Assembly (NCBI RefSeq): GCF_004310335.1
Contig: NZ_SIRS01000007.1
Location: forward strand, 62,001-126,000
Reading direction: 5' to 3'
DNA length: 64,000 nt
Origin: Hyunsoonleella pacifica
GTDB taxonomy: Bacteria; Bacteroidota; Bacteroidia; Flavobacteriales; Flavobacteriaceae
The notes under the pieces are model-generated. The model did not search any database and was not told the origin of the DNA. It saw only the letters and a program-made list of their open reading frames with translations. Position numbers and translations under genes: made by a program. Positions 14,379-48,257 of this stretch are shown piece after piece (within the stretch, counting starts at the first letter, position 1; every line of letters starts with the position of its first letter).

Positions 14379-14567
14379 CTGTTAAAACTTGGATAATGTA
14401 AAAAACAATGTAAGCAACAATATAGGTGCTTAATAAATATCAATAAACTAATTGTAAATAAAGCTATTGGTAGAAATGTATGTAACCAACATCTATAAAT
14501 GAATCTTCACACTCAGGTAAAAACAGGACATTTATTTACGTATCTAAATAATCTAGAATTATAATTT

Positions 14568-15755: not shown

Positions 15756-15768
15756 ACAAAACTTTGAT

Positions 15769-17280
15769 TTAGTATCCAGGGTTCTGAGGTTCTAGATTCG
15801 GATTTCTAGCTAACTCATCTGCTGGTAATGGAAATAAATAATCTTGGTTAGGGTCAAAATTTGGCTTTTCGCCTTCTAAACCAGAAGCGCTAAACACTTC
15901 ACTTCCTAGTCTTCTTCTTGCAATATCGTACCATCTTTTAAATTCAAACGCTAATTCTAATCTACGCTCTTCTAAAACCATGTCTCTAAAGTCATCTTGT
16001 GATAATCCAGAAACATCTGCGGGGAAAGTCCCTCCGTTTCTTGCTCTATCTCTTACTCTATTTACATAACCTTCTGCTTCAGAAGAATTAGGAGACACTT
16101 CATTTAATGCTTCTGCAGCAATTAATAAAACTTCTGCATAACGCATCATAGAATAATTATGCTGAGAGCCTCTACCATTATTGTTAGCAGTTATACCTGT
16201 GTTACGAGTATATTTTGCTATATGAGGACGGTTTACTGCTCTACTATTAAAATCTCTATAATTAGTAAAAGGCTCTACATTACCATCAAAAATTCCTGTA
16301 GCATCAAAACTAACCGACTTCCTGTAATCTTGATCATCCCATGTATTGTATACCTCTAAAGAAGGCACAGCTACAGACCATCCGCCTCCAATACCATATT
16401 GCTCATCACTTCGGATTCCTGTTAAAGCTGGTTGATAATCTTGACCAGCATCACCATCTCTAAATCCATTAAAATCTAGCGAAAATATTGGTTCCTTAGA
16501 ACCATCAATTGTAGTAGCATCAAACAAATCTTGGAAATCTGCTTCTAAAGCCAAATCATACGGCCCTTCATTATCAATTACACCCTTAGCTTCTTTATAA
16601 GCTTCTTGGTAATTACCCATGGTTAAATGTACTAATGCCAAATAAGAATGTGCTGCAGATTTAGCAGGTATAGACCTTGCTGGTTGTGTATTTGGTAACC
16701 ATTGCTTAGCAAACTCTAAATCCGAGATTATATTAGCATACACCTCTGCTGCTGATGTTTTACTTATGGAACCTGATGCTTCAACATCAGTTATAGGCGT
16801 ATCTATGTATGGAATATCACCAAACTGCCTTACTAAATGAAAATATATAAATGCTCTAACAAAATAAGCTTGTGCTGTTATTGGATTTTTTTGCTCTTCT
16901 GAAGCTCCTACTAGTTCTGCACCAGCAATAGCCTGATTTGCAGCTGCTACAATTTGATAGGATCTTCGCCAATTATCAGGAATCATACCATTATCTGCTG
17001 GTACATTAAACTCATTATGCTCAATTCTACGTGCTGATGTAGTTGGATCTCCAATATCTACCATATCACTACGTAATAGAATAGTAAGCGACATTTTCCT
17101 ACCCCAAAAATCTTCGTGGGTCATGTGTCCATAAACACCATTTACAGCAGTTTGTATATCTCTTGGGGATTGAAAAAATCCTTCAGGAGCCAGTAGCCCT
17201 ACTGGTGCCTCCTCTAAGTCTGAACATCCTATTATTGATAAGCCTATCAATAAGAAGAAAAATTTGTACGTTGTTTTCAT
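15769..17280 (-). CDS. SusD-like glycan-binding lipoprotein (PUL 1)
   Basis: A 503-residue RagB/SusD protein with lipobox LSIIGC (Cys about residue 19). It has the tetratricopeptide-like N-terminal half (AYFVRAFIYFHLVRQFGDIPYID at about 143-165) and the typical C-terminal segments RYAEVLLIAAEALNE and RRLELAFEFKRWYDIARR, ending in NPGY. SusD proteins lie on the cell surface as the lid of the SusC transporter. The gene is 13 nt after SusC. It probably binds an oligosaccharide containing uronic acids, judging from the GH88 and GH2 genes that follow. Confidence 0.96.
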   Translation of the reverse strand: MKTTYKFFFLLIGLSIIGCSDLEEAPVGLLAPEGFFQSPRDIQTAVNGVYGHMTHEDFWGRKMSLTILLRSDMVDIGDPTTSARRIEHNEFNVPADNGMIPDNWRRSYQIVAAANQAIAGAELVGASEEQKNPITAQAYFVRAFIYFHLVRQFGDIPYIDTPITDVEASGSISKTSAAEVYANIISDLEFAKQWLPNTQPARSIPAKSAAHSYLALVHLTMGNYQEAYKEAKGVIDNEGPYDLALEADFQDLFDATTIDGSKEPIFSLDFNGFRDGDAGQDYQPALTGIRSDEQYGIGGGWSVAVPSLEVYNTWDDQDYRKSVSFDATGIFDGNVEPFTNYRDFNSRAVNRPHIAKYTRNTGITANNNGRGSQHNYSMMRYAEVLLIAAEALNEVSPNSSEAEGYVNRVRDRARNGGTFPADVSGLSQDDFRDMVLEERRLELAFEFKRWYDIARRRLGSEVFSASGLEGEKPNFDPNQDYLFPLPADELARNPNLEPQNPGY

Positions 17281-17293
17281 ATTTGTTTTTTTT

Positions 17294-20200
17294 TTAGAAT
17301 CTTAAGTTTAAGCTGAAATTAACCGATTTTAAAGTAGGGTAATTTCCAAAATCAAATCCGTTTGTTGTATTACTGTCTGAGTTACTTCCTCCTCCAGATC
17401 CAAAATAGCTTACTTCAGGATCTAAACCAGAATAATCGGTAAAGGTTAATAAATTTTGTGCACTAATAGATAGTCTAATATTTTGCATACCTAGCTTTTC
17501 AACCACATCACTAGGTAATGTGTAACCCAAAGCTATATTTTTAAGTCTGATATAGCTTCCATCTTCTACAAATCGAGAAGAAATCTCTTTTCCTCTAAGT
17601 TTAGCTCGAGGGATATTAGTATTTGTATTTGATGGCGTCCAAGAATTAAGAATCTCTGTAGTAGCGTTTGAATCTCCGTTAAACAACTGTATTGCCGTTA
17701 AATTCATGATATCGCCACCTTGAACACCTTGAAAGAAAATATTCAAATCAAAATTCTTATAAGTGAAATTATTAGTAATACCAAACGTAAAATCTGGTGT
17801 TGGATCTCCAATAATTTGTTGATCTGAAGGAGAAATATCACCACTACCATCAACATCAGTAAATAACTGATCTCCTGCCTCTCCACCAGGTAATAAAGCT
17901 GTACCAGCTGGCAAGTCTCCACCTTGATAAACCCCTTGGTAATCATAACCCCAAAATGCACCTAATACTTCACCTTCTCTTAACAAATGCGTACGAGGTA
18001 AATTGAAATAACCCGGTGAGGCATCTAAAAATAAATCTATATTGTCTCCATCTGATAAGGCAACTACTTCGTTTTGATTTGTTGAGAAATTAAAATCTGT
18101 AGTCCAAGAAAAGTTTTCATTACTTATGTTTCTAGTATTCAAATTAATCTCAAACCCCTTATTATTTACCTCACCAATATTTCTTAAACTAGCAGGTGTT
18201 AAAAAACCTAAGAATTGAGGTTGTGAATTATCTCCAATAATTAAATCTTTAGTATCAATATTATAATAGTCTAAAGAAAGAGATACTTTGTTGTTAAAAA
18301 GCCCTAAATCTAAACCTACATTAGTTTGAAAAGACGATTCCCATTTTAAATTTGGATTAGCAGGTTGGTCTGGTGTTACTGCATTTACAGTTTGTCCATT
18401 ATTAACCGCATAAATATTATCGAAACGCGCCAAAGATTCAAATGGAGATATTGCTTGATTACCTGTTACACCATAACTAACTCTAAGTTTTAAATTTGAA
18501 ATTTTATCACTGTCTTTTAAGAAGTTTTCATTAGAAACTTTCCAACCAAGAGCTGCTGAAGGGAAAATTGCATATTTCTCGTTTGCAGCAAAGTTTGATG
18601 CACCGTCACGTCTAATAGTTGCAGTGATTAGATATTTATCATCATAATCGAAATTAATTCTGCCAAATTGAGATTGAATTTCTGATTCTACTAATGATGA
18701 TGTTGGTATTAACTGTACTGCTCCTCCCGATAAGTTACGGAATGAAAAGGAATCAGACGTAAACCCTTGAGCTCCTGCAGCAAAATTATCTCTAGATCTT
18801 TTTTGATAAGAATAACCAGCTAATAATGTTAATTTCCCTTTGGCTATTTCTTTTGTATACGTTAAATAATTCTCACTAATTAAACTAGTTCTTTTAAAAT
18901 TATCAATAATTGCTCTTCCTCCTACATTTCCACCAGCTGTAGTAATTAAAGTTGATGGTCTAAAAAGCCCAAATGTTTCATTAGTAGTACTAAAACCAAA
19001 TGTTGTTTTAAATGTTAGGTTTTCTAAAATATCATAATTAGCATATAAGTTTGCTCTATATACATCTGTCTTGGTTTCATTTATACCTTCAGTTGCTACT
19101 GCGAAAGGATTATCTATATCATCACCTACTCCGTTCACTGTATTTAGTCCATTAGCATCTAGCACTCCTAAATCTGGTGCAAATCTAAAAGAACCACTAA
19201 CTACGTCATCACCTCCACCATTAGCTGTTTCTCCAGTGGATTGTGTTGGTACTCCATTTTCAGTTCCTCTACTTCCAAATACATTAATTCCTAACTTAAG
19301 TTTATCTGTAACCTGAGCATCAATATTCGAAAGAAACGTAAACCTTTCAAATTCAGAGTTTATAAGAACTCCATCTTGTTTAAAGTAATTTGCAGACGCA
19401 TAGAAGTTTACTTTATCAGTTCCTCCAGAAAATGAAGCTTGATGATTTTGTGTACTACCAGTTCTATATAACAAATCTTGCCAGTCTGTATTAGCAGGCC
19501 CTTGTACATAACTAGGGTTTATAGCTTGTTGATAGGTTGCAAACTGATTAGCATCTAATAAATCTAATTCATTCGCAGTGTTTTGTACTGAATAGTTAGA
19601 ATTAAGTTCGATAGTTAAAGCGCCACTTCTTCCTTTTTTAGTTGTAACCATAACAACACCATTAGATCCTTGGGAACCATAAATAGCTGTTGCTGATGCA
19701 TCTTTTAAAACTTCAATTGATGCAATATCGTTTGGCTGAGGAAAAGTTGCTCCTACAAAACCATCTACTACAATTAAAGGAGAACTACTTGCATTTATAG
19801 ATGTGTTACCTCTAATCTGTATGTTAATTGGTGCACCTGGCTCACCACCATTATTAGATTGTACCACAACACCTGCTGCACGACCCTGCAACGCTTGTGC
19901 TGCATCTAAAACAGGAAATGCATTAAGTTCTTCTGATTTTACTGAAGATACAGCCCCAGTTAAATCACTCTTTTTCCGTGCACCATAACCTACTACAACT
20001 ACTTCATCTAAAGCAGCTAAATCCTCTTCTAATTTTACATCTAGCGTACTTGAGTTACCAACTTTAACTTCTAGTGTAGCATACCCTATATAGCTAAAAA
20101 CAAGAACAGCGTCAGCTTCACTAACTTTTATGGAATAATTACCATCAAAATCTGTTGAAGCACCTGAACTAGTTCCTTTAACAACTACATTTACTCCAGG

Positions 20201-20329
20201 TAATACTGATCCATCTGATTGGGATGTTACAGTTCCTTGTACTGTTTTTTCTTGAGCACTAGCGGTAAGTGCAAAACACAAACTCAATAGTAACAAGAAT
20301 ACTTTTTTCAATTGTTTAGTTTTCTTCAT
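17294..20329 (-). CDS. SusC-like TonB-dependent transporter (PUL 1)
   Basis: A 1011-residue SusC family outer membrane transporter. It has a signal peptide ending in ASAQ (about residue 25), a carboxypeptidase-regulatory-like domain (VQGTVTSQSDGSVLPGVNVVVKG), the TonB-interacting segment LDEVVVVGYG (about 107-116), a plug domain to about 235 and a beta-barrel ending in the outer membrane signature phenylalanine (SLNLRF). It is the first gene of SusC-SusD-GH88-GH2. Its promoter region at 20439-20481 carries three tandem GntR-type palindromes, and an HTCS gene lies just upstream on the same strand, so two regulatory inputs are likely. It probably imports uronic-acid-containing oligosaccharides. 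Confidence 0.96.
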   Translation of the reverse strand: MKKTKQLKKVFLLLLSLCFALTASAQEKTVQGTVTSQSDGSVLPGVNVVVKGTSSGASTDFDGNYSIKVSEADAVLVFSYIGYATLEVKVGNSSTLDVKLEEDLAALDEVVVVGYGARKKSDLTGAVSSVKSEELNAFPVLDAAQALQGRAAGVVVQSNNGGEPGAPINIQIRGNTSINASSSPLIVVDGFVGATFPQPNDIASIEVLKDASATAIYGSQGSNGVVMVTTKKGRSGALTIELNSNYSVQNTANELDLLDANQFATYQQAINPSYVQGPANTDWQDLLYRTGSTQNHQASFSGGTDKVNFYASANYFKQDGVLINSEFERFTFLSNIDAQVTDKLKLGINVFGSRGTENGVPTQSTGETANGGGDDVVSGSFRFAPDLGVLDANGLNTVNGVGDDIDNPFAVATEGINETKTDVYRANLYANYDILENLTFKTTFGFSTTNETFGLFRPSTLITTAGGNVGGRAIIDNFKRTSLISENYLTYTKEIAKGKLTLLAGYSYQKRSRDNFAAGAQGFTSDSFSFRNLSGGAVQLIPTSSLVESEIQSQFGRINFDYDDKYLITATIRRDGASNFAANEKYAIFPSAALGWKVSNENFLKDSDKISNLKLRVSYGVTGNQAISPFESLARFDNIYAVNNGQTVNAVTPDQPANPNLKWESSFQTNVGLDLGLFNNKVSLSLDYYNIDTKDLIIGDNSQPQFLGFLTPASLRNIGEVNNKGFEINLNTRNISNENFSWTTDFNFSTNQNEVVALSDGDNIDLFLDASPGYFNLPRTHLLREGEVLGAFWGYDYQGVYQGGDLPAGTALLPGGEAGDQLFTDVDGSGDISPSDQQIIGDPTPDFTFGITNNFTYKNFDLNIFFQGVQGGDIMNLTAIQLFNGDSNATTEILNSWTPSNTNTNIPRAKLRGKEISSRFVEDGSYIRLKNIALGYTLPSDVVEKLGMQNIRLSISAQNLLTFTDYSGLDPEVSYFGSGGGSNSDSNTTNGFDFGNYPTLKSVNFSLNLRF

Positions 20330-20438
20330 TAGTTTAATTTTAAGTTAATTTAATTAGCTATAAATCATAAAGACTTCAGTGTAAACATCTAGGAAGTAAT
20401 TAGATCTATATTTTAAGTTTATTGTTCAATTGTAATTT

Positions 20439-20481
20439 TTGGTAAACCAAATTGGTAAACCAGTTTGGATTACCAAATATA
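20439..20481 (-). promoter_or_regulatory. Triple GntR-type operator and -7 box of PUL 1 susC
   Basis: Three 12-bp palindromes lie at exact 13-bp spacing: TTGGTAAACCAA (20439-20450), TTGGTAAACCAG (20452-20463) and TTGGATTACCAA (20465-20476). On the minus strand TATATTTG (20481-20474) fits the Bacteroidota -7 box and overlaps the outer operator, so the start of transcription would fall inside the array, about 140 nt before the susC start codon. I find no clear -33 TTG at the usual distance. Confidence 0.8.
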
Positions 20482-20803
20482 CACAAATTTTTGAAATGTT
20501 ATAATTAATGTGTATTTCTTTGTTATTCATATCTGTTTTTAATCCAATTATTATAAAAACATTGAGTCAAAACTTATTTAGTTTCTCATGAAATTATACA
20601 GTGTAGGTTTTAAGTGAAATAAATTATCACTAAACTAAACACTACAATGATTAGCATGAGTATAATTTCTAGATACTTAAATTTTGATTTCGTTTTTTTC
20701 ATCATCATAAAACTAGAATAATTAGAAGTTGTAGAAGTACAAAACAAGGAGTAAAATAGTACAATCAACTGTTTTTCAAATAATTATATGTGATAAAAAA
20801 ATT
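20482..20803. other. AT-rich intergenic region between HTCS 1 and the PUL 1 promoter
   Basis: About 320 bases without a credible gene on either strand. I see no strong terminator after the HTCS stop at 20804 and no second copy of the TTGGTWWWCCAA palindrome. The segment just upstream of the -7 box is where an HTCS AraC-type domain would be expected to bind, but no direct repeat stands out by eye. Confidence 0.5.
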
Positions 20804-23800
20804 CTATTCTGAAAATTTAGCGGCGTATTTAGAAGGTGTTTCGCCAAATTTCTTTTGAAAAGATTTACTAAAATATTTAGGATCTTTATATCCTACCCTA
20901 TAACTTACTTGGGAAATATTAATTTTTCCTTGTTCTAATAGTTGAGCTGCACGTTTCATTCTAAAGTGCTGGATAAACTCATTAGGTGTAAAATTAGACC
21001 AAGCTTTTATTTTTGTAAATAGCATCGTTCTGCTTACCCCAAGTTCTGAACAGAAATAAGCTATATCAAAATCTTCATTACCTAAGTTATCGTTAACTAT
21101 TTGTAATGCTTTCTTATATAACTTTTCATCATAAGATGATACTAAAATATCTTCGGGTTTTAAACCATCGCTAGAAATAAATTTTTCTCTTAGCTTTTCT
21201 CTGGTCTGTAATAGGTTCTTTATTTTTAACTTAAATTCATTTATATTAAATGGCTTACTAATATAATCATCAGCACCACGTTCTAATCCATCAATCTTGT
21301 AGATTAAAGAAGACCTAGATGTTAATAGTATAATAGGAATATGACTTGTTTTTAATTCTCCTTTAACTGCTGAACAAAGTTCTGTACCTGTCATTTCAGG
21401 CATTATAACATCACTAACAATTAAATCTGGAGATTCTTTTTTTGCCTTACTTAAAGCTACTTTTCCATTTTCAGCTTCTAATACATTATAATCTTCTTTA
21501 AGAAGATCTTTTATAAATTTTCTAAGTTGCTTATTATCTTCTACTAATAAAATTGAATACTTTTTAGTTTTATTAGCTATTTGAAGGTCATCATCTAATA
21601 TAGGTTCCTCCTCTTCTAATTGTTTTACATATTGAGAAAGGTCATCACTAAATTTAAAGTCCTTTAAAATTTCCGAATCATCTAAATGCGTATTTCCTAA
21701 TAATAATGTTACTGAAAAAATAGAACCTTGATTATTTACGTTATCATTTACTTCAATACTCCCTTTGTGTAATTCAACTATATTTTTTGCTATAGATAAA
21801 CCGATGCCTGTTCCTTTATTATAATCTTTATCTGGTTTATTATTAACTGCTACTTCAAAAAAGCGATCGAATATTTTGGTTTGATACTCCTTAGCAATAC
21901 CAACACCAGAATCTTCAACATGTATTTTTATACTATCTTGATAGCTTACAATTCTAACTACAATACGTCCCCCATTAGGAGTATAGCGGAATGCATTAGA
22001 GATTAGATTGTAAAAAACACGCTCTAACTTATTACGATCATAATACAATAAAATTTCTTCCTCTTCTGATACAAATTCAAATTTATAGTCTCCATTTTTA
22101 GCATATTCTGTAAATGACAGAAAAATTTCTCTTAAGAATTTAACAATATTTCCTTCAGCTGCTTTTAACTTATATAGGTTACTTTCAAATTTTCTAAAGT
22201 CCATCAACCTGTTTATCAAATGCAATAAGTGATTAGCATTATTTTCAATAACCATCAACTTTTTATACATCTTACTACTACCTCTGTAAGAGTCCAAGAT
22301 TTGATTTAATGGCCCCAATATTAAAGCCAATGGTGTTCTAAATTCGTGCGATATATTAGTAAAAAACTCTAATTTATTTTTATTAGTTTGCTTTGTTCTC
22401 TCAGTTTCCAAATATTCTAATTGCAAGTCGTGTCTTAATTTTGTTCTAGATTTTAAGATGTCTAGAAGAAAAAATAATGCAATTAAAATTAATAGCCCGT
22501 ACAACGCAAAAGCCCACCATGTTCGCCATGGTGCTGGTGCTACATTTATTGATAATTGTGTTGCACTAGTATTCCAAATATTATCGTTGTTAGCGCCTTT
22601 TACTTCAAAAATATAATTACCAGGATTTTGGATGGTATAAGATGCTGAATTATTGGATGTTAAGTTCCAGTCTTTTTCTAACCCTTTTAATCTATATTGA
22701 TATTTGTTATTACTAGAGTTTATAAAGTTTGGAATAGAAAATGTGATACTAAAATTTCCTTGTTTATGCGATAAATTGATAGACTCTGTATATGCTAATT
22801 GTTCCTTCAAACTATTTGTAGGACTATCAAATTTGATGTCATTTTCTCTAATAATAAAATCAGTTAAGATAACTTGAGGTGCATAATTATTTGTTGTTAT
22901 TTTCTTTGGATTGAAATAGGATACACCTTGGGGGCTCCCAAAGTAAAACTGCCCATCTTCTGTCTTATAACTCGCATTATTAGTAAACTCGTTACTTATC
23001 AATCCATCTGTTTGATTGTATAGTTTTGACTCCTGCGTTTTGATGTTATATTTAACAATACCTTGATTAGTACCTATCCAAAGCTGTTGCTGATTATCTT
23101 CTTGAATACTTCTAACTGCAGATATTTTTGTTTCTTCCAAATTCAACAAAACAGCATCGAATCCTTTCCCATTATATTTAAATAGACCTTTTGACTTTGT
23201 TCCTACCCAAATATCATCATTACCATCTTGATATACCGATAAGATATCATCTCCATATTGTAAGCTTTTATCACAAAAGAAATTTGTTATTTGTCCTGAT
23301 TCGGTAATTTTATTTAATCCGTTTTCAGTTCCTACCCAAATGTTATTATTAGTATCTATAAAAATTGTTCTTATCAAGTTATTAGATAACTCGTTTAAAC
23401 CTTCATTTGAAGATTTATAATGGTTGAATTTTCTTGAAACTGGATTGTATTTTATTAAACCTTTACCAAAGGTTCCAATCCATATATTCTCGTTTCTATC
23501 TTTTTTTATAGCGTATACTCCTGCATTTTTTAATACCACCTCTAACTCTTTAGGTAGTTTTATCGTTTCAAACGTTTTTCTTTCAGTGTTATATACTTGC
23601 AAACCTGTCTTGAAAGTACCAATCCAGAGCTTATTAGAATCTAGTATTTCTAACGCCTTAATATTGTTATCTATTAAGTAAGAATTGTTTTCTGTGAGAT
23701 ATTCATAAGAATTATTATTCTTATTCCAAATATTTAGTCCTCCTCCTTCAGTTCCAAAAAACATATAATTACCATAAGACTCTATAGAGCTTACTACCGT

Positions 23801-24874
23801 GTAATTTAAACCCTTGCCCTTTTGATTTTGAGTGATATTTTGAAAGTTAACATTAGAGGCATCCCAGATACTAACACCACCGTAATAGGTTCCTATCCAT
23901 ACTGACCCTTTCTTATCTTTAAATAAGGATTTAATCGAGTTTTTGCTTAAACTCGATTTATTATCTAAATCAGCTTGTAATAATTCTATTGTTCCAGTAG
24001 ATTCTACTAAGATCAACCCTTCATAAGTACCAATCCAAAGCACTCCTTTTTTATCAAAAAGTAGCTTTCTAACACTTTTTATAGCTTCAAACTGAGTTCC
24101 TTTTTCAAAAAAAGGATTATAAACTTTACTATTTAAATTATAGTTTACGAGGCCATTATCTTTAGTTGCTATTAGTAAATTAGCATCTTTATCCTCTGCT
24201 AAGTCTTGTACATAAAAGCCCTCACTTCCCGAAATAAGATTTAATTTTAACGTATTGTCTTCAGCATATTTTGCCTCAAAAATACCAGCTCCAGTGCCTA
24301 TAAAAATTTGACCTAACTTGGTTTCTAAAATGGTCATTACTTTCATCTTAGCTGATGACTTAAGATGATTATTCAGGTAATTCGAGAAACTATTAGTTGT
24401 TTCATTGTAAACAGACACTCCTCTCCATGTACCTGCCCAAATATCTCCGTTTGATAGTTTTTTTATGGACCATACCGTGTTATTTGATAACGAATAAAAA
24501 TGCTCCTCATGAAAATAACTTTCAAACTTGTCGGTCTTAGGGTCATACTTATTTAAGCCATTATATGTCCCAACCCACAAATTACCATTATCATCTTCTT
24601 GTATTGATAAAATATCATTATTACTAATAGAGTTTGGGTCATTTTCATCATTCCTGTAAATTGTAAACTTAGTTCCATCATACTTATTGAGACCATCTCT
24701 GGTACCAATCCATATTTGCCCTAATTTATCTTGATGTATTGCTATTACTGCACTTTGAGATAGTCCATCTAGCGTAGTTAAATTAGAAAAATTATATGAT
24801 GGTATTTGCCCAAAACAAACAAAACTTAGCGTAAAAAAAAACAAAAAAGTAAGATACCTAAACATTAAAAACAA
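20804..24874 (-). CDS. Hybrid two-component sensor-regulator (HTCS 1)
   Basis: A complete 1356-residue HTCS. After a signal peptide come two blocks of two-component-regulator propeller repeats (about residues 30-690; recurring IWIGT and NGLNKY motifs), a Y_Y_Y domain (about 700-770), a membrane helix (about 785-810), a HisKA/HATPase kinase (FFTNISHEFRTPL, phospho-His near residue 841), a receiver domain (LIVSDVIMPEMTG, phospho-Asp near 1154) and an AraC helix-turn-helix (about 1255-1350). HTCS proteins sense oligosaccharides in the periplasm and switch on the adjacent PUL, here susC at 17294 downstream on the same strand. It is a close paralogue of the HTCS at 61261. All phosphotransfer residues are present. 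Confidence 0.95.
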   Translation of the reverse strand: MFLMFRYLTFLFFFTLSFVCFGQIPSYNFSNLTTLDGLSQSAVIAIHQDKLGQIWIGTRDGLNKYDGTKFTIYRNDENDPNSISNNDILSIQEDDNGNLWVGTYNGLNKYDPKTDKFESYFHEEHFYSLSNNTVWSIKKLSNGDIWAGTWRGVSVYNETTNSFSNYLNNHLKSSAKMKVMTILETKLGQIFIGTGAGIFEAKYAEDNTLKLNLISGSEGFYVQDLAEDKDANLLIATKDNGLVNYNLNSKVYNPFFEKGTQFEAIKSVRKLLFDKKGVLWIGTYEGLILVESTGTIELLQADLDNKSSLSKNSIKSLFKDKKGSVWIGTYYGGVSIWDASNVNFQNITQNQKGKGLNYTVVSSIESYGNYMFFGTEGGGLNIWNKNNNSYEYLTENNSYLIDNNIKALEILDSNKLWIGTFKTGLQVYNTERKTFETIKLPKELEVVLKNAGVYAIKKDRNENIWIGTFGKGLIKYNPVSRKFNHYKSSNEGLNELSNNLIRTIFIDTNNNIWVGTENGLNKITESGQITNFFCDKSLQYGDDILSVYQDGNDDIWVGTKSKGLFKYNGKGFDAVLLNLEETKISAVRSIQEDNQQQLWIGTNQGIVKYNIKTQESKLYNQTDGLISNEFTNNASYKTEDGQFYFGSPQGVSYFNPKKITTNNYAPQVILTDFIIRENDIKFDSPTNSLKEQLAYTESINLSHKQGNFSITFSIPNFINSSNNKYQYRLKGLEKDWNLTSNNSASYTIQNPGNYIFEVKGANNDNIWNTSATQLSINVAPAPWRTWWAFALYGLLILIALFFLLDILKSRTKLRHDLQLEYLETERTKQTNKNKLEFFTNISHEFRTPLALILGPLNQILDSYRGSSKMYKKLMVIENNANHLLHLINRLMDFRKFESNLYKLKAAEGNIVKFLREIFLSFTEYAKNGDYKFEFVSEEEEILLYYDRNKLERVFYNLISNAFRYTPNGGRIVVRIVSYQDSIKIHVEDSGVGIAKEYQTKIFDRFFEVAVNNKPDKDYNKGTGIGLSIAKNIVELHKGSIEVNDNVNNQGSIFSVTLLLGNTHLDDSEILKDFKFSDDLSQYVKQLEEEEPILDDDLQIANKTKKYSILLVEDNKQLRKFIKDLLKEDYNVLEAENGKVALSKAKKESPDLIVSDVIMPEMTGTELCSAVKGELKTSHIPIILLTSRSSLIYKIDGLERGADDYISKPFNINEFKLKIKNLLQTREKLREKFISSDGLKPEDILVSSYDEKLYKKALQIVNDNLGNEDFDIAYFCSELGVSRTMLFTKIKAWSNFTPNEFIQHFRMKRAAQLLEQGKINISQVSYRVGYKDPKYFSKSFQKKFGETPSKYAAKFSE

Positions 24875-28480: not shown

Positions 28481-29191
28481 TTAAGCCGATTTAATGTTGT
28501 AACAATATTGATAGAGCGCACTAAAATGCTCTTTCATTTTTTGTTTTGCTAAATCTGGATTTTGTGCTTTAATTGCCTTATAAATTTGCTTATGCTCTTC
28601 TATTCCCAAAACAGCTTGATTTTTATCACAAACATGGTACTTTTCAAAATCTATAATGATTTGCGGTGTAATGGTTAGCATAAAGGTATTCATGGTACTG
28701 TTTCCACTTGCCTTGGCAATTGCCAAATGAAATAGTAAATCTTCCTGCACGGCATCCTCACCAGACAATACTTTTTCTTCGTAGGCATCAAACGTTTCTT
28801 TTATATGCCTTAAATCCTCTTCTGATCGTCTTAAAGAAGCCAACTTTACTGTTTTCAGCTCCAATAGAATTCTAGTTTCTACCAACGATTTAAAATCAGG
28901 AGATTCCAGTCTTAAAATATCGTCAATCATTCCATTCATGGCTACTACGCCAATATTAGCAACAAAAGTACCACTCTGCGGAATAGATTTTAATAATCCA
29001 TAGAACTCCAGTTTTTGAATAGCTTCTCTAACATTCCCTCTACTTACTCCAAACTTATCAGATAGCATTCTTTCTGAAGGCAACTTATCCCCTGGCTCCA
29101 GGTTTTTATAATTTATCAACTCTTTAATCTTTCCGATTATTTCGTTCTGTACTTTTTGACTATCACTAATTACTATTGATTCTAATTTCAT
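28481..29191 (-). CDS. GntR/FadR-family repressor, AusR-like
   Basis: A 236-residue regulator with an N-terminal GntR winged helix (KLPSERMLSDKFGVSRGNVREAIQKLEFYGLL, about residues 40-71) and a C-terminal all-helical FCD ligand domain (about 90-230). Its place in the alginate locus matches that of AusR, the GntR repressor of alginate use described in Zobellia galactanivorans (recalled, not checked). FadR-type repressors of hexuronate use bind palindromes like TTGGTATACCAA; the same type of palindrome (CTGGTTAACCAA) lies at 29209-29220, 18 nt before this start, so autoregulation is likely. The ligand is probably KDG or a related intermediate. This protein is the best candidate reader of all TTGGTWWWCCAA arrays in the window. 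Confidence 0.9.
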   Translation of the reverse strand: MKLESIVISDSQKVQNEIIGKIKELINYKNLEPGDKLPSERMLSDKFGVSRGNVREAIQKLEFYGLLKSIPQSGTFVANIGVVAMNGMIDDILRLESPDFKSLVETRILLELKTVKLASLRRSEEDLRHIKETFDAYEEKVLSGEDAVQEDLLFHLAIAKASGNSTMNTFMLTITPQIIIDFEKYHVCDKNQAVLGIEEHKQIYKAIKAQNPDLAKQKMKEHFSALYQYCYNIKSA

Positions 29192-29208: not shown

Positions 29209-29220
29209 CTGGTTAACCAA
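29209..29220 (-). promoter_or_regulatory. Single GntR-type operator before gntR
   Basis: CTGGTTAACCAA, a 12-bp near-perfect palindrome of the same type as the arrays before both susC genes, here as one copy 18 nt upstream of the gntR start codon. No second copy is found 13 bp to either side. It suggests negative autoregulation. Confidence 0.72.
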
Positions 29221-29315
29221 ATTTCGTCGATAAATTTAAACAAAAACGACTAAACTTTTGTGCTTTTACGTTTATTTACAATAATAGCCGACCTTGCATC
29301 AGTTATTAATAAAAA

Positions 29316-34651: not shown

Positions 34652-37600
34652 TTAAAATTGAAAGTTAATACCAGCTGATATAGTTCTCACCACAGGTCCG
34701 TCACCTCTTTGATAACCTGCCGTTAAAGGTGTATTTGCATTACTTGATGTTTGTCCTGCAGCTTCTGGATTAAACCCTTGATATTCTTGTGCTGTCCAAT
34801 ACAGCAAATTATTTCCTGTGACATATAGTCGTAATCTATCAAAATTTAGTTTGTTAGATAAGTATTCTGGCAATGTGTACCCTATTGTAATATTTCTTAA
34901 AGTCACAAAAGAAGCATCTTGTATATGCGCACTGGTAAATCTTCGTGGTATAACTTTATCGCGTTCTACTTCTGGTAATGCTGTAGCTTGAACAGCTCCT
35001 TCACTTGCAAAAAGTAGCTGATCTAAATCTGCCACTCTTACCTCTCCTCCATGTGATCCTTGAAACTGAAAAGTAAAATCTAAGTTTTTATAGGAGATAT
35101 CTGAATTGAAGCCCCATGTAAAATCTGGATAAGGACTCCCAATTTCAGTTCTATCATCTGCATCAATAATCCCATCTCCATTTAAATCTTTCACATACAC
35201 CTCTGCAAAATCATTATTAAATCTATTGAATGGGTTTTCAATGAAATCTATATCAATTTCTCTATCGAATACATAACCGTAGAAAGAGGTAATAGGAAGT
35301 CCAATTCTAGCAATAAATTCTGTTGGCCTACTTTCTTGATCTATTCTAGATATTATCTGTTCATTTCCACCTAAATCTAACACTTCGTTTCTATTTAGAC
35401 CAAATTGACCAGAAAGTCTCCAACTAAAATTCTCATTAGTCCAAATCCTAGAATTTATAGCAAGTTCAACACCTTGATTTCTAACTTTTCCTATATTCTG
35501 TAAGAAGGTATCAACACCATAAGCCGCAGATACTGGAGCAGAAAGTATTAAGTCCTCACTTGTTCTTGTATAATAATCTGCTGTTAAACTAAATAGATTT
35601 CTTCCGAAAGTGATATCTAATCCAGGATTAAACTCTACTAGCTTTTCCCAACCTAAATCTGCATTTGCTAAAGCAGTATTTTTAACCCCTGATTCTCCAT
35701 TAGCACTAACAATAGCGAATGTTTCTTCAAACCTATATAAAGAGTCATATATATTATTTGAAATTTGATTAGAGCCTGAAATACCGTAACTAGCTCTTAG
35801 TTTTAAAAAAGTAATGACGTCACTATTGGAAAGGAAATCTTCACTCGACACATTCCAACCAACAGATGCAGCAGGGAAAAACCCGTATCTGGTATTTGAG
35901 CCAAATCTCGTACTTCCATCAGTACGTGCAGAAATTTGCACCAAATACTTTTCATCATAGTTGTAATCTAGCCTTCCAAAATATGATACTAATTTATCTG
36001 ATCCATTTTGAGTAAAAGTTGTACCACCATCTGCTAATGCAATATTTTCATTAAAATCATTAGAATATACACCAAAAGCTTCAGAATCTTGACTTGAGAA
36101 ATCTCTATTAGTGAATTCAAAACCTAGAATAGTATTAAAGTTGTGTTTTCCAAAGCCTCTCTTGTATCTTAAAACAGATTCTATGACATATTGATTAACC
36201 TCATCCCTACTCTCAAAACGAAACCCTTCGTCCCCGAAGTTTACGATATTTTCATTTCCAGCAACAAAATCTGTATTATTATTTTTAGTGTGTCTGAAAA
36301 TACCCGAAATAGTTTGCTTAAAATTAAGACCCTTAGCTAATTTAAAATCTACATAAGCTGCGGCATTTAAACTAAATCTTCTTTTTATCCTAGATCTTTC
36401 AAGGTAAGGTACTAATGGATGAACATTTCTGGTTAAACCCAATGTTAGCTGCCCTGGTAAGCCTTGTTGCGTGTTAATAACTGGCAGCCCTGTATTAGGA
36501 TCTCTTAAAATAGTTCTTGGATTATTTTGATCCTGAAAAAAGACTCTATCAAAAAGTCTAGAAAAACCATAACTACCAACACCTAAGTTTTCATACTGGG
36601 TACCTGCAGTACTCAGCGATCCACCAGCATCCCTATACGCGTTAAAAATATCTAAATGATCTTGATTTAGATATAATGGTATAGCTCCGTATTGTCTTAG
36701 CGCATCAGTAAATCTGGCAGGCAATCTATCTTGATCGTTGTAACTCGCACGAAGATTAACTCCCGCTTTTATCTTTTCGTTTTGAGACTTGGTATCAATC
36801 TTTAAATTTGCATTGTATTTTTTAAAATTATCCGCTAAAGCAATACCTTCATCTTCAAGATAAGCTACGGATGCAGAATATTTGGTAAGCTTAGAACCAC
36901 CTCTGGCACCAAATGAATGGCTCGTTATAGTACCTCCAGGCAAAATCTCCTTCTGTAAATCTAATTCACCTCCACTCAATTCTGACAAATAATCCCATGC
37001 TGCTAGTTCTGCATACGCTTGGTTGTACCTAAGGTTAACTCTAGCAAAATTCACAGGATCTGCTATCTCATCAACAGCACTCTGTAACCCATCTAAACGA
37101 GTGCGCTCTTCAGCTACTGAAAATGTAAAATTCTCATTATCGGTAGCATATTTATAACCTGTAAACGAGTTAAATGTAAACCTTGTTTTACCTTCAATAC
37201 CTTGTTTTAGCGTTACCAAAATTACACCATTTGCTCCTCGAGAACCATATATTGCAACCGAAGAAGCGTCCTTTAGCACACTTATAGATTCAATGTTATT
37301 ATTATCAATAGATGATAGTATATCTGCATCTGTCCCCAATACAACTCCGTCAACAACAATGAGTGGCGAAGAAGAGCCTGTAATTGAACCAGGACCTCTA
37401 AGTGTTATTTTTGGGTCACCCCCAGCTTCTGATGCTACGGTTTGTATTCTTAAACCTGCAACTCTACCTTGAAGGGCGTCTTCCACACGTGCCACGGCAA
37501 TATCTTGAATTTCTTTAGAATCTATTTTTGTTAAAGCACTAGTTACATTCTTTTGTTTTTGCTCACCATAGGCCACTACGACCACTTCATCTAATTTACT

Positions 37601-37894
37601 AATATCTTCCTTTAGAGCTATATTAATAGTAGTATTATCGCCTATTATTTTTGTTTGGGAGGCATAACCCACATAAGTAAATTGTAGTACATCTCCTTTT
37701 TTAGCATTTATAGTATAAGCGCCATCAAAATCAGTAGTTGTCCCAGTTGATGTGCCTACAATAATTACATTAACACCTGGAATAGGCATATTATTAAGGT
37801 CGGTTACCACACCATTTATTGGGATATTTTGTGCATTTAGCATATAGCCAAAAACCAAAGTGAGTACTAATAACAGTTTAGTTTTTATATTCAT
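34652..37894 (-). CDS. SusC-like TonB-dependent transporter (alginate PUL)
   Basis: A 1080-residue SusC transporter. It has a signal peptide ending in LNAQ (about residue 22), a carboxypeptidase-like domain (NGVVTDLNNMPIPGVNVIIVG), the TonB-interacting segment LDEVVVVAYG (about 102-111), plug and a C-terminal barrel ending SAGINFQF. It is the first gene of the alginate operon susC-susD-susE-like-PKD-PL7. Transcription probably starts near 38180, giving a leader of about 285 nt with two hairpins, and is controlled by a triple GntR-type operator. It is predicted to import alginate oligosaccharides. Confidence 0.96.
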   Translation of the reverse strand: MNIKTKLLLVLTLVFGYMLNAQNIPINGVVTDLNNMPIPGVNVIIVGTSTGTTTDFDGAYTINAKKGDVLQFTYVGYASQTKIIGDNTTINIALKEDISKLDEVVVVAYGEQKQKNVTSALTKIDSKEIQDIAVARVEDALQGRVAGLRIQTVASEAGGDPKITLRGPGSITGSSSPLIVVDGVVLGTDADILSSIDNNNIESISVLKDASSVAIYGSRGANGVILVTLKQGIEGKTRFTFNSFTGYKYATDNENFTFSVAEERTRLDGLQSAVDEIADPVNFARVNLRYNQAYAELAAWDYLSELSGGELDLQKEILPGGTITSHSFGARGGSKLTKYSASVAYLEDEGIALADNFKKYNANLKIDTKSQNEKIKAGVNLRASYNDQDRLPARFTDALRQYGAIPLYLNQDHLDIFNAYRDAGGSLSTAGTQYENLGVGSYGFSRLFDRVFFQDQNNPRTILRDPNTGLPVINTQQGLPGQLTLGLTRNVHPLVPYLERSRIKRRFSLNAAAYVDFKLAKGLNFKQTISGIFRHTKNNNTDFVAGNENIVNFGDEGFRFESRDEVNQYVIESVLRYKRGFGKHNFNTILGFEFTNRDFSSQDSEAFGVYSNDFNENIALADGGTTFTQNGSDKLVSYFGRLDYNYDEKYLVQISARTDGSTRFGSNTRYGFFPAASVGWNVSSEDFLSNSDVITFLKLRASYGISGSNQISNNIYDSLYRFEETFAIVSANGESGVKNTALANADLGWEKLVEFNPGLDITFGRNLFSLTADYYTRTSEDLILSAPVSAAYGVDTFLQNIGKVRNQGVELAINSRIWTNENFSWRLSGQFGLNRNEVLDLGGNEQIISRIDQESRPTEFIARIGLPITSFYGYVFDREIDIDFIENPFNRFNNDFAEVYVKDLNGDGIIDADDRTEIGSPYPDFTWGFNSDISYKNLDFTFQFQGSHGGEVRVADLDQLLFASEGAVQATALPEVERDKVIPRRFTSAHIQDASFVTLRNITIGYTLPEYLSNKLNFDRLRLYVTGNNLLYWTAQEYQGFNPEAAGQTSSNANTPLTAGYQRGDGPVVRTISAGINFQF

Positions 37895-38151
37895 AATTAG
37901 TTTTTTATTATTAAATAATCTCTAGTTGCATTTAATATTATTCTTGCTAACACTCATAGAAATAATATATTTAAATCATTTTATGTAAATTAGTACAAGA
38001 CGATGATTATCGTTGTGATAACATGTTTATTTTACTTCCCTCCTAAAAGAAGTAAATAAGTTTTAAAAGGATAGGTATATGCCTGTCCTTTTTTTATTTT
38101 ATATGATCGTTGATTATCCTTGTTGAAGTATTAGACATTAGTTTAGTTTTA
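37895..38151 (-). promoter_or_regulatory. Long structured 5' leader of the alginate susC
   Basis: The region between the predicted start site and the susC start codon holds no credible small gene. It has one hairpin at 38065-38092 (see separate entry) and a smaller one around 37995-38016 (ACGAT with ATCGT plus outer pairs). The minus strand near 38035-38045 also reads AGGAGGG, a rare Shine-Dalgarno-like run far from any start codon. A post-transcriptional role is possible but unproven. Confidence 0.45.
38065..38095. terminator. Hairpin with T run; plus-strand terminator or leader hairpin
   Basis: AAAAGGATAGG (38065-38075) pairs with CCTGTCCTTTT (38082-38092) with one G-T pair and a 6-nt loop. 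On the plus strand it ends in seven T residues and looks like an intrinsic terminator, yet no plus-strand gene lies upstream. On the minus strand the same hairpin would sit in the susC leader, followed by only a short T run (CCTTTTAAAAC). Confidence 0.6.
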
Positions 38152-38216
38152 TTGGTTTTCCAAATTGGTTTACCAGTTTGGTTTTCCAAATATATACTAA
38201 TTTTCTGTTAAATCAA
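38152..38216 (-). promoter_or_regulatory. Promoter and triple GntR-type operator of the alginate susC
   Basis: Three palindromes at 13-bp spacing: TTGGTTTTCCAA (38152-38163), TTGGTTTACCAG (38165-38176) and TTGGTTTTCCAA (38178-38189). On the minus strand the -7 box TATATTTG is at 38194-38187 and a -33 TTG at 38216-38214, separated by 19 nt, which fits the Bacteroidota consensus. The -7 box shares bases with the outer operator, so bound repressor would block the start site. Confidence 0.85.
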
Positions 38217-42147: not shown

Positions 42148-43212
42148 TTACTTAACTATTAACCTTTCAACACCTACAGTAAATGCGCCTTTATTGAAAA
42201 CAATAAAATACATCCCAGGGTTAAAATCAGAAATATCCATTGTTTTAGAAATAGGTTTTATTTCTTTTATAAACTGCCCCAAACTATTATAAACATAAAT
42301 TTCACTAAAACTGTTAGCTACAGCCTCATTAATGAGAATTTGAGACTTCGCTGGATTGGGTAAAACTTTAATTACTTTTTTTTTAAAATTAAAATCATCC
42401 ACTGACAAAGCACCTGTTTCTTCGATGCTAAAGCCCGAAAACAACACTTGTTCATCTCTTAAATCAGCAGCATTTATCAAACTTCTGTAAATACCCCATT
42501 TTGGTCGCACAAATTCTGCACCTGGTCGCCAATTGATAATGGAGCTATTTGAATAACTAAAAAGCTCAACCCCATCGCTAACCCTTTTAATTTCAATTGA
42601 ATAAATACCATCCGTTGCGTAATTTATTGTCTCAGTTACTTCAAGCCAAACACCTTTAAAGGGTGCTAAATCCATCTTTTTTAGAGTAATTTGTCTATCA
42701 GTTTCTGCATAGCGCAATTCCAACTGATCCGGATTGCCTTTTCTAGTGGTTAAGGTATACATAGGCATGCTTTCCAAACTACCACCAACCGATTTTAATT
42801 GATGAATATGCGTAAAGTTTGGTGAGGATTGAAAGCCAGCATCTAGTTTAAACTTCCATTTGTAAATAACATTTTCTCCTTCAATACCTTTAAGGTTATC
42901 AGGAGACTTATCGTAAGCCTTTATTTCGTTGCGTTGCCTGTCAAAATTTTTACAACGATCGTTATCTGGTGTTACGTGGATATTAAAGCGGAATACGTTT
43001 GAATTAAGGTCCGAATCAAAAACCTCATCAATATGCCGGCCAAAAGCGGCATGGTTACAATCTGGAACTTCAATAACATCAAACCCCGGTGCTAACACAG
43101 AATTGATTAACTCATAGGTGTTTCCTGGTCCATCAGCATCCAATACTACCTGAGAATTTATAGTTTGAAATTGAAATAAAAGAACAGCACTAAATGAAAG
43201 TAAATATCGCAT
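42148..43212 (-). CDS. Jelly-roll polysaccharide lyase candidate with T9SS domain
   Basis: A 354-residue secreted protein. After the signal peptide (ends NSQ, about residue 20) comes a concanavalin-A-like domain of about 240 residues resembling the heparin-lyase-I type (Polysacc_lyase) families: DRQRNEIKAY (about 88-97), KWKFKL and NFTHIHQLKS (about 116-140), each carrying charged or His residues typical of jelly-roll lyases. The last ~80 residues are a T9SS type A sorting domain (LPNPAKSQILIN and so on). The family number cannot be fixed; alginate, glucuronan or ulvan could be the target. It has its own promoter and double GntR-type operator, so it belongs to the predicted alginate regulon. 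Confidence 0.7.
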   Translation of the reverse strand: MRYLLSFSAVLLFQFQTINSQVVLDADGPGNTYELINSVLAPGFDVIEVPDCNHAAFGRHIDEVFDSDLNSNVFRFNIHVTPDNDRCKNFDRQRNEIKAYDKSPDNLKGIEGENVIYKWKFKLDAGFQSSPNFTHIHQLKSVGGSLESMPMYTLTTRKGNPDQLELRYAETDRQITLKKMDLAPFKGVWLEVTETINYATDGIYSIEIKRVSDGVELFSYSNSSIINWRPGAEFVRPKWGIYRSLINAADLRDEQVLFSGFSIEETGALSVDDFNFKKKVIKVLPNPAKSQILINEAVANSFSEIYVYNSLGQFIKEIKPISKTMDISDFNPGMYFIVFNKGAFTVGVERLIVK

Positions 43213-43220
43213 CTGTATAA

Positions 43221-43272
43221 TTGGTTAACCAGTTTGGTTTACCAAATATAACTATATTATTATGTTCTACAA
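43221..43272 (-). promoter_or_regulatory. Promoter and double GntR-type operator of the jelly-roll lyase gene
   Basis: Two palindromes at 13-bp spacing, TTGGTTAACCAG (43221-43232) and TTGGTTTACCAA (43234-43245). On the minus strand -7 TATATTTG is at 43250-43243 and -33 TTG at 43272-43270, 19 nt apart. The predicted start site near 43237 leaves a leader of only about 25 nt, and the inner operator ends 9 nt before the start codon. Confidence 0.85.
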
Positions 43273-45781: not shown

Positions 45782-47146
45782 TTATTTGATAACTATTTTT
45801 TTTGTTAAAGTTCTGTCCTCAGCATTTATTTTCATTAAATACATGCCAGCTGCTACATTAGATATGTTTAACCTATTATCCTTCAATCTATTTTCAGACA
45901 AAATTCTTTTTCCCAAGATATTATATAGCGATACCGAACTAATTTGCAAATTATTTGATTCGATAGTTATAAAATTATTGGCTGGGTTAGGGTATATTCT
46001 AAAATTAGAAACAACGTTCTCATCAACAGAAAGAGGAGCAAAATTAACATTAACCTCTCCATAGGTAAGACCGCTAAAATCGCTAAAATTATTATTTGTT
46101 AATTCTGCACTAGGTACGTTTCTAGTTCCTGTACCACTAAATCTCCAATCTGGATATGATACTGAATTCACTCGTCCAGCCATCCAATCATCATTATTAA
46201 CAGCATCAGTAGTACAATCAAAACCACTAGAAGTACCTTGTCTAGCCACGTAATTAGGATACTGATTAAGAGTAACTATTGTAGGAGATAAAGAACTATC
46301 AAAACGAAGTAAAGGATCTGTAGATAGTAGTTGTTCAACAAAAATTATTTTACCATATCCAAATTCACCTACTTCACCATTGCCGGTAGTAATATCGTCA
46401 TCGTCTAAAATACTAACTGAATCATATATTGTCCAGGTTAAGGCATCTCCATCGAGAACTCCATCCTCATTTGAATCTACTATCGCATCCTTAGGATTTG
46501 TAGCTGATTGTACAATCATATATGTAGAACTTTGGTCATTAAAGGTTCCATCGTATCCTATATCTGGGGTAATTGACGAAACATTATAATTATTTAAAGT
46601 CTCATTAGTGCCATCAGAAGGACTTTCATCCGTCCATTCTATAGTGTCAGCCACTAATTGTATTGTTACTACATTAGCGTCTGAAGCAGCTAAATCAGTC
46701 GCATAAGGATTTATGAATTTAGTACCGCTTATATCGGCACCAAGTAAATCAACTGCACCTGTACCAGTATTCATAGTTATATCAACAACAATAACTAAAA
46801 TTCCATTGCTGCCAAATTGCAGTCCACTTAAGTCAACCGCTTCTCTAACTTTCCCAATGTTAGTACCAACATCACTATCATCTCCATCTCCATCTATTGC
46901 AATAAAATAGGTGTTAGCTGGAATAGTACCATTCGCTGGCCCCCTAAATTCAAAATATTCAATACCTGCATCTGTATCTGTTTGATAAGGCTCCATAGCT
47001 GCATTATCAGAATCATTGAAAAAAGCAGTGCTACTATTAGGCGGACTAGGAATTATTTCACTAATAAAATAAGTGGTGTGGTCGTAAGTTTGTGAATATC
47101 CCAAAAAAGAGACACATAGTAATAATAAAAGTAGTTTTGTTTTCAT
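45782..47146 (-). CDS. Secreted lamin-tail-like protein with T9SS domain
   Basis: A 454-residue protein with signal peptide (ends GYSQ, about residue 19) and a T9SS type A sorting domain (IYPNPANNFITIESN to the end, about 385-454). The middle part has a lamin-tail-domain-like segment (IEYFEFRGPANGTIPANTYFIAIDGDGDDSDVG, about 62-94) with acidic, probably calcium-binding loops. No catalytic motif is visible. Its promoter has the triple GntR-type operator and a good -7/-33 pair, so it is predicted to be strongly regulated with alginate genes. It may be a surface adhesin or alginate-binding protein; the function is not known. Confidence 0.75.
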   Translation of the reverse strand: MKTKLLLLLLCVSFLGYSQTYDHTTYFISEIIPSPPNSSTAFFNDSDNAAMEPYQTDTDAGIEYFEFRGPANGTIPANTYFIAIDGDGDDSDVGTNIGKVREAVDLSGLQFGSNGILVIVVDITMNTGTGAVDLLGADISGTKFINPYATDLAASDANVVTIQLVADTIEWTDESPSDGTNETLNNYNVSSITPDIGYDGTFNDQSSTYMIVQSATNPKDAIVDSNEDGVLDGDALTWTIYDSVSILDDDDITTGNGEVGEFGYGKIIFVEQLLSTDPLLRFDSSLSPTIVTLNQYPNYVARQGTSSGFDCTTDAVNNDDWMAGRVNSVSYPDWRFSGTGTRNVPSAELTNNNFSDFSGLTYGEVNVNFAPLSVDENVVSNFRIYPNPANNFITIESNNLQISSVSLYNILGKRILSENRLKDNRLNISNVAAGMYLMKINAEDRTLTKKIVIK

Positions 47147-47198: not shown

Positions 47199-47264
47199 CT
47201 GGTTTTCCAATCTGGTTAACCAATTTGGTTTTCCAAATATAAACATAATAAATAGGTTTAACAA
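47199..47264 (-). promoter_or_regulatory. Promoter and triple GntR-type operator of the lamin-tail gene
   Basis: CTGGTTTTCCAA (47199-47210), CTGGTTAACCAA (47212-47223) and TTGGTTTTCCAA (47225-47236) lie at exact 13-bp spacing. On the minus strand -7 TATATTTG is at 47241-47234 and -33 TTG at 47264-47262, 20 nt apart. The array ends 53 nt before the start codon. Confidence 0.85.
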
Positions 47265-47856: not shown

Positions 47857-48244
47857 TACTATTTGATGGTAGTTGACTATCTGTTCATTTTCTTTTAAAT
47901 AGATACTAACTATTGGTCCTCGGTTTGTTTTTCCGGCTATGTAATAGTTTTAAGTGTATTGTGCCTCCTCCAAATTTTATACTGGATGTAACACTAATTA
48001 CTACTTTACCATTAGTTTCTACATTAAGAATTATTGGGTTATTTTCATCTCCAAAAGCATGAAACACAATATTAATATCATTATATGTCCCATTTTTTAG
48101 AACTAATTTATTACCTGGCTTAGCTTCAGAAATAGCTTTAACTAATTGCTGTGCATTAGAAACTAAAGCTTTAGATTGCTCTTGCTTTTTACAAGAAAAG
48201 ACTATTAATATTAAAAGAAAAACATTCAAAAATTTCATTTTCAA
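47857..48244 (-). pseudogene. Truncated PL6 alginate lyase pseudogene
   Basis: The start (48244) gives a lipoprotein signal (LIVFSC) and about 95 residues matching the N-terminus of the intact PL6 at 43391: AKPGNKLVLKNGTYNDI against AKPGDYIIMSNGVWKDV, and SSIKFGG against SYLKFGG. Then about 70 codons are missing. The sequence resumes in another frame as HNTL-K-NYYIAGKTNRGP (intact copy: HNELSNCYIAGKTNRGP), with one A lost in an A run, and continues to VNYHQIVN before ending in the neighbouring fragment. The catalytic region is gone. Translated as it stands, the frame would stop at 47906 after 112 residues. Confidence 0.85.
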
Positions 48245-48245
48245 A

Positions 48246-48257
48246 TTGGCTAACCAG
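48246..48257 (-). promoter_or_regulatory. Remnant GntR-type operator before the PL6 pseudogene
   Basis: TTGGCTAACCAG, one base off the palindrome of the other sites, directly abuts the pseudogene start codon. The position where a second copy would stand 13 bp further (48259-48270) is degenerate (TTATAGCTTTTA). It suggests that the dead gene once belonged to the same regulon. Confidence 0.6.

Follow-up and report, generated by a model that had tools for sequence, protein, structure and literature searches.

Predicted AusR-type operators anchored on the -7 box of alginate promoters in Hyunsoonleella pacifica and its relatives

The AusR regulon of Zobellia galactanivorans was reportedly described by Dudek et al. 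2020 (10.1093/nar/gkaa533). According to the publications compared here, alginate promoters carry between one and three operator copies for Zobellia AusR, which acts as a repressor that is released by alginate intermediates (PMC7874173, PMC8286568, PMC8073546). In the case of E. coli NanR, several GntR dimers (three) pack closely on (GGTATA)3 (PMC8012715). The DonS RNAs of Bacteroides, 78-128 nt in length, are antisense to susC homologues of polysaccharide loci (PMC7366714). For F. psychrophilum, the sigma-A box TAnnTTTG was reported to span the positions -12 to -5 (PMC9723704).

The stretch of DNA analyzed here, in the following called the window, comprises 64,000 nt of the H. pacifica genome (4.13 Mb), which, judged by the repressor sequence, is closest to Hyunsoonleella and Algibacter of the Flavobacteriaceae. 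The minus strand of the window carries an alginate utilisation locus with susC/D and genes for a PKD protein, a PL7-type lyase, an oligoalginate lyase, a PL6-type lyase, an SDR, a KDG kinase, an MFS transporter and a GntR/FCD regulator. In total, four operator arrays were found in the window, consisting of three, three, two and three copies of TTGGTnnACCAA with a 13-bp period that is exact throughout. The arrays, their promoters and the associated genes are located as follows:

20439-20476, minus strand: array of three copies, precedes the second susC (17294-20329); -7 box at 20474-20481, predicted start at 20469
28481-29191, minus strand: gene of the GntR/FCD repressor, AusR-like, 236 aa (Pfam GntR 2.1e-18, FCD 3.6e-24)
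29209-29220, minus strand: single operator of the repressor gene; the TAAATTTA box (29231-29238) lies upstream of it, in register at a distance of exactly 13 bp
34652-37894, minus strand: alginate susC, TonB-linked transporter (TIGR04056 2.4e-223), first gene of the main operon
38152-38189, minus strand: array of three copies upstream of the alginate susC, AusR-type, kept in relatives
38178-38189, 38165-38176 and 38152-38163, minus strand: single copies of the alginate susC array, 13-bp period
38187-38194, minus strand: -7 box TATATTTG of the alginate susC, TTG in common with operator 1, predicted start at 38182
38214-38216, minus strand: -33 TTG of the alginate susC, 19 nt 5' of the -7 box
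43221-43245, minus strand: array of two copies, precedes the polysaccharide lyase gene (42148-43212)
43243-43250, minus strand: -7 box of the polysaccharide lyase gene, with the -33 TTG at 43270-43272 (19 nt) and the predicted start at 43238
47199-47236, minus strand: array of three copies, precedes the gene of a T9SS-secreted protein (45782-47146)
47234-47241, minus strand: -7 box of the gene of the T9SS-secreted protein, with the -33 TTG at 47262-47264 (20 nt) and the predicted start at 47229

By pattern search, true arrays in the own genome are confined to the alginate locus; of the tandem-operator matches elsewhere in the genome, the best (C29) differs at two positions, lacks a -7 box and was rejected as a chance hit. 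The second susC/D unit (11952-24874), which includes GH88 and GH2 genes and lies beside a hybrid two-component regulator gene, also begins at a three-copy repressor array, and alginate may in this way also control a further polysaccharide locus. At 47906-48257, a 112-aa PL6-type N-terminal fragment is located with the degenerate single operator TTGGCTAACCAG directly upstream; fragment and operator look like what is left of a lyase gene together with its promoter.

Like Zobellia AusR, the protein encoded at 28481-29191 is a GntR-family repressor with an FCD domain, and its gene is located inside the alginate locus. All three copy numbers occur here as well, with a single operator at the repressor gene and two to three at the catabolic genes. 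Going by the published description of Zobellia AusR, it is very probable that the GntR/FCD alginate repressor AusR regulates the arrays, and the window arrays almost certainly represent the AusR regulon in another genus. The residues D151, H155, H200 and H222 of the repressor are invariant across 30 orthologues, and its AlphaFold model (pLDDT 79.8) is consistent with a GntR/FCD fold and uninformative on operator spacing. The closest solved chain is 9jpj, annotated as pyruvate dehydrogenase complex repressor, with an entry title that names DhdR bound to DNA. Both domains are shared with the PdhR/LldR/FadR branch. Classical sites of this branch have three bases between the half-sites, unlike the operator described here, in which two bases separate TGGT and ACCA. 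NanR, too, is a GntR/FCD repressor with a tandem operator and is found among the solved relatives of the window repressor (9e-15; 20% identity in the structure match), but it binds direct repeats asymmetrically, whereas the operators here are full palindromes with a 13-bp period.

On the coding strand, the final TTG of TATATTTG forms the initial three bases of the operator in all four window arrays, and the gene-distal copy of each array (high coordinate) reads ...CCAAATATA. An earlier note on this DNA had stated that the outermost palindrome of all four arrays runs into CAAATATA, the -7 box of the minus strand, and that a -33 TTG lies 19, 19 and 20 nt upstream at three promoters; both could be confirmed, the latter for the promoters at 38.2, 43.2 and 47.2 kb. 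By the criteria for Bacteroidota sigma-A, the -7 box TAnnTTTG is present at four of four window promoters and a -33 TTG at 18-20 nt at three of four, the 20.5-kb promoter of the second susC having no -33 TTG at 18-20 nt from its -7 box. By itself, CAAATATA shows no enrichment in the window, with 7 occurrences against an expectation of 8.7, but 4 of these 7 fall exactly on array edges. The window has 632 TTGG words, of which 24 (3.8%, the four arrays counted in) follow a TAnnT; this results in a chance of about 2e-6 for its presence at four of four arrays.

For comparison, 80 repressor-gene loci were fetched from other species, giving 81 loci together with the window. Here, the arrays are located near orthologues of the window repressor. 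Sites with at most one mismatch are spaced by 13 bp in 113 cases, by 26 bp in 28 cases and by 39 bp and 33 bp once each. The 80 loci and the window yielded 105 arrays outside coding sequence, each with two to four copies. As the loci share descent, the counts are not independent. TAnnTTTG is fused to the gene-distal edge of 96 of the 105 arrays and to the opposite edge of about 2; before one orientation was corrected by hand and the unoriented arrays were added, the count was 94 of 103 oriented arrays. Counted by locus, the gene-distal fusion is present in 73 of 75, and it extends over 23 named genera or strains. Among the 51 single sites in the 81 loci, a fused TAnnTTTG is absent throughout. 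Of the 94 fused arrays, 65 have a TTG at a distance of 18-20 nt to the box, with a background of 1-6 per distance, and 51 have it at exactly 19 nt.

The exact TAnnTTTG fusion is missing in about 9 of the 105 arrays, and four of these exceptions in Flavobacteriaceae have a box that is shorter by one base, TAnnTTGG. Such a short -7 box (TATATTGG) was observed fused upstream of the oligoalginate lyase gene in three loci (L042 1205, L072 340 and L086 368); it resembles the motif SM5 of F. psychrophilum, TAnnTTGY.

Furthermore, 392 evenly drawn Bacteroidota genomes were surveyed with the pattern TATATTTGGnnnACCARnYTGGTnnACCAR. The fused pattern occurs in 11 of them, all among the 12 genomes with a repressor orthologue of at least 66% identity (hypergeometric 1.6e-20), and the backward pattern used as a control gave no match in the 392 genomes. 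The twelfth orthologue-bearing genome has a fused array with a TATTTTTG box instead. Because of this co-occurrence with the repressor gene, the arrays are regarded as operators of the GntR/FCD regulator, the binding itself being predicted.

The start sites are predictions by the -12 to -5 rule of F. psychrophilum. At 20469, 38182, 43238 and 47229 they lie within operator 1, 1-2 nt from the values of the earlier note. Relative to these starts, operator 1 would cover -7 to +5, operator 2 about +7 to +18 and operator 3 about +20 to +31. With operator 1 on -7 to +5, an occlusion of the core promoter is well supported. It is highly likely that the AusR-type operators are anchored on the -7 box and repress by core-promoter occlusion until alginate is available. 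The tandem operators would be bound by the AusR-type repressor encoded at 28481-29191 in the same locus, with the half-site of the first operator doubling as the terminal TTG of the -7 box for sigma-A. As long as alginate is absent, a dimer on operator 1 would compete with sigma and with promoter opening and prevent either the binding of the polymerase or the opening itself, and dimers on operators 2 and 3 may strengthen or lengthen the block over the first ~30 transcribed bases. At a 13-bp period, adjacent dimers would be turned by about a quarter turn past a full turn (10.5 bp per turn); for such a tight arrangement of three GntR dimers, NanR offers a precedent (PMC8012715). Uronate products of alginate breakdown would then free the repressor, leading to a joint induction of all units.

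The repressor gene appears to be wired differently. In 20 of 31 single-operator repressor promoters, a TAnnTTT box is located 13-14 bp upstream of the operator and in register, and the single operator of the repressor gene would span about +7 to +19. Six more repressor genes have two operator copies, of which the first is fused to a -7-like box. As read from these promoters, regulator and targets differ by one operator position, at the core promoter or one step downstream. A single operator that usually lies 13-14 bp downstream of the -7 box would result in a weaker self-repression, and we infer the same for the displaced operator of the window repressor gene. The exact-register fusion and the displaced operator may or may not be contained already in Dudek et al. 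2020.

TTGGTnnACCAA is likewise found next to the regulator gene in the case of distant homologues of the repressor, which share ~40-50% identity and come from other families of the class. Their operators are mostly arranged with a 15-bp period (15-16 bp in several), and several are fused to TAnnTTTG. Loci with the 15-bp period, some of them with the TAnnTTTG fusion, include L121, L165, L166, L175 and others. The operator form with a three-base spacer gave two isolated matches in seven distant-homologue loci and did not recur. Across these variants, the conserved feature is the shared TTG, and the period varies.

The fusion could be read differently if the TATAT flank were part of the recognition sequence of the repressor and no promoter box. 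The flank is indeed contiguous with the operator and nearly constant, with the strict TATATTTG box in 78 of the 105 arrays, but a symmetric operator would carry it at both ends, and it is found at the gene-distal end of 96 arrays and the gene-proximal end of about 2. Together with its absence from all 51 single sites and the -33 TTG located 18-20 nt away, this makes a mere recognition flank extremely doubtful. Unlikely, too, is an elongation roadblock by the downstream copies as the main mode of repression, with the overlap of the -7 box being secondary. Copies 2 and 3 do fall within the transcribed region, as does the lone operator of the repressor gene; nearly every catabolic promoter, however, has a copy that overlaps the -7 box, whereas the number of copies downstream varies from one to three. 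Core-promoter occlusion, which the earlier note had proposed together with a downstream extension of the block by the extra copies, is supported by the gene-distal -7 box in most arrays and by the fused motif tracking the repressor gene across Bacteroidota.

A further proposal of the earlier note, that promoter and operator spread from gene to gene as one copied cassette, did not find such support. That four promoters in a single locus share an identical fused core would fit copying. Yet in the 35 nt that precede the -7 box, the identity between different promoters from the same locus is 40%, compared with 43% for unrelated genes of different species and 55% for orthologous susC promoters, so the flanks show no excess similarity and no trace of recent copying. 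Copy numbers and the presence of the -33 element also differ among the sister promoters, and the fusion is kept with variant boxes and, in several loci of distant homologues, at a period of 15-16 bp. Spreading as a cassette is therefore very improbable, although a very old copying event is possible; selection for the overlap accounts for the fusion more simply and suffices.

Between the array and the alginate susC, a candidate antisense RNA was detected in the leader:

37998-38095, plus strand: candidate antisense RNA located in the leader of susC, 98 nt long by prediction (model R1, 77.8 bits)
38033-38054, plus strand: hairpin of the candidate RNA with the C-rich loop CCTCCTAAAA
38069-38088, plus strand: terminator hairpin of the candidate RNA, plus T7
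37986-37993, plus strand: weak -7 box TAAATTAG of the candidate RNA

Two conserved hairpins directly follow the array in most alginate susC leaders of the relatives (among L013-L092). The covariance model matches this leader element in 60 of the 81 loci, the best match always lying opposite to the susC strand, and of the 12 genomes in the phylum sample that carry the repressor gene, 8 have the element. A weak model match in G384 is located between unrelated genes and was discarded as an ordinary terminator. The leader has a length of at least 172 nt in 58 of 59 cases with the element and of at most 153 nt in 12 of 14 cases without it. An Rfam scan of the window gave no match, so the leader element does not belong to any family catalogued there. 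As the element is nearly invariant, covariation analysis found no compensatory pairs in it.

Both strands of the element fold well, and the folding energy does not settle the strand; a sense-strand attenuator, with which this folding agrees, is a possible reading. The assignment to the antisense strand is based on a base pair of the terminator-like stem, the length of the T-run and the promoter box. A conserved C.A mismatch on the sense strand corresponds to G.U on the antisense strand, and the stem is complete in 43 of 49 cases on the antisense strand versus 9 of 49 on the sense strand. The T-run has a mean of 7.2 on the antisense and 4.3 on the sense strand. On the antisense strand, 52 of 60 elements are preceded by TAnnTT[TA]G at a distance of 20-65 nt versus 5.6 in shuffles, with 2 in the sense-strand control and 2 in the reversed control. 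No -33 element was found upstream of these -7 boxes.

Like DonS, the candidate is short (~98 nt), lies opposite to a susC homologue and has its own promoter box and terminator. Unlike DonS, it belongs to another family and another substrate, and its sequence is strongly conserved wherever relatives have retained it; the two are likened by description. The susC leader probably encodes a conserved antisense RNA of ~100 nt with two hairpins, a terminator and its own -7 box, as a flavobacterial counterpart of DonS that is kept in many Flavobacteriaceae genera and absent where leaders are short. The susC unit would then be silenced at two levels, with the repressor acting on the core promoter and the antisense RNA on the leader. 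For Flavobacteriaceae, no report of RNAs of this kind at polysaccharide loci was found, and the candidate is apparently undescribed so far.

The additions made here, as predicted from the genomes compared, are the exact -7 registration throughout the family, the displaced operator of the repressor gene, the variant with a 15-bp period and the leader element on the antisense strand. For the host, a seaweed-eating marine bacterium, the overlap of operator and -7 box should keep the genes for alginate digestion off until alginate appears. The arrangement provides a testable grammar for the switching of polysaccharide loci in marine Flavobacteriaceae, covering the working operator copy, the start site and the wiring of the repressor gene. 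The pattern is specific enough that alginate regulons could be predicted straight from genome sequence. If transcribed, the leader element would represent a second, RNA-based layer of alginate control.
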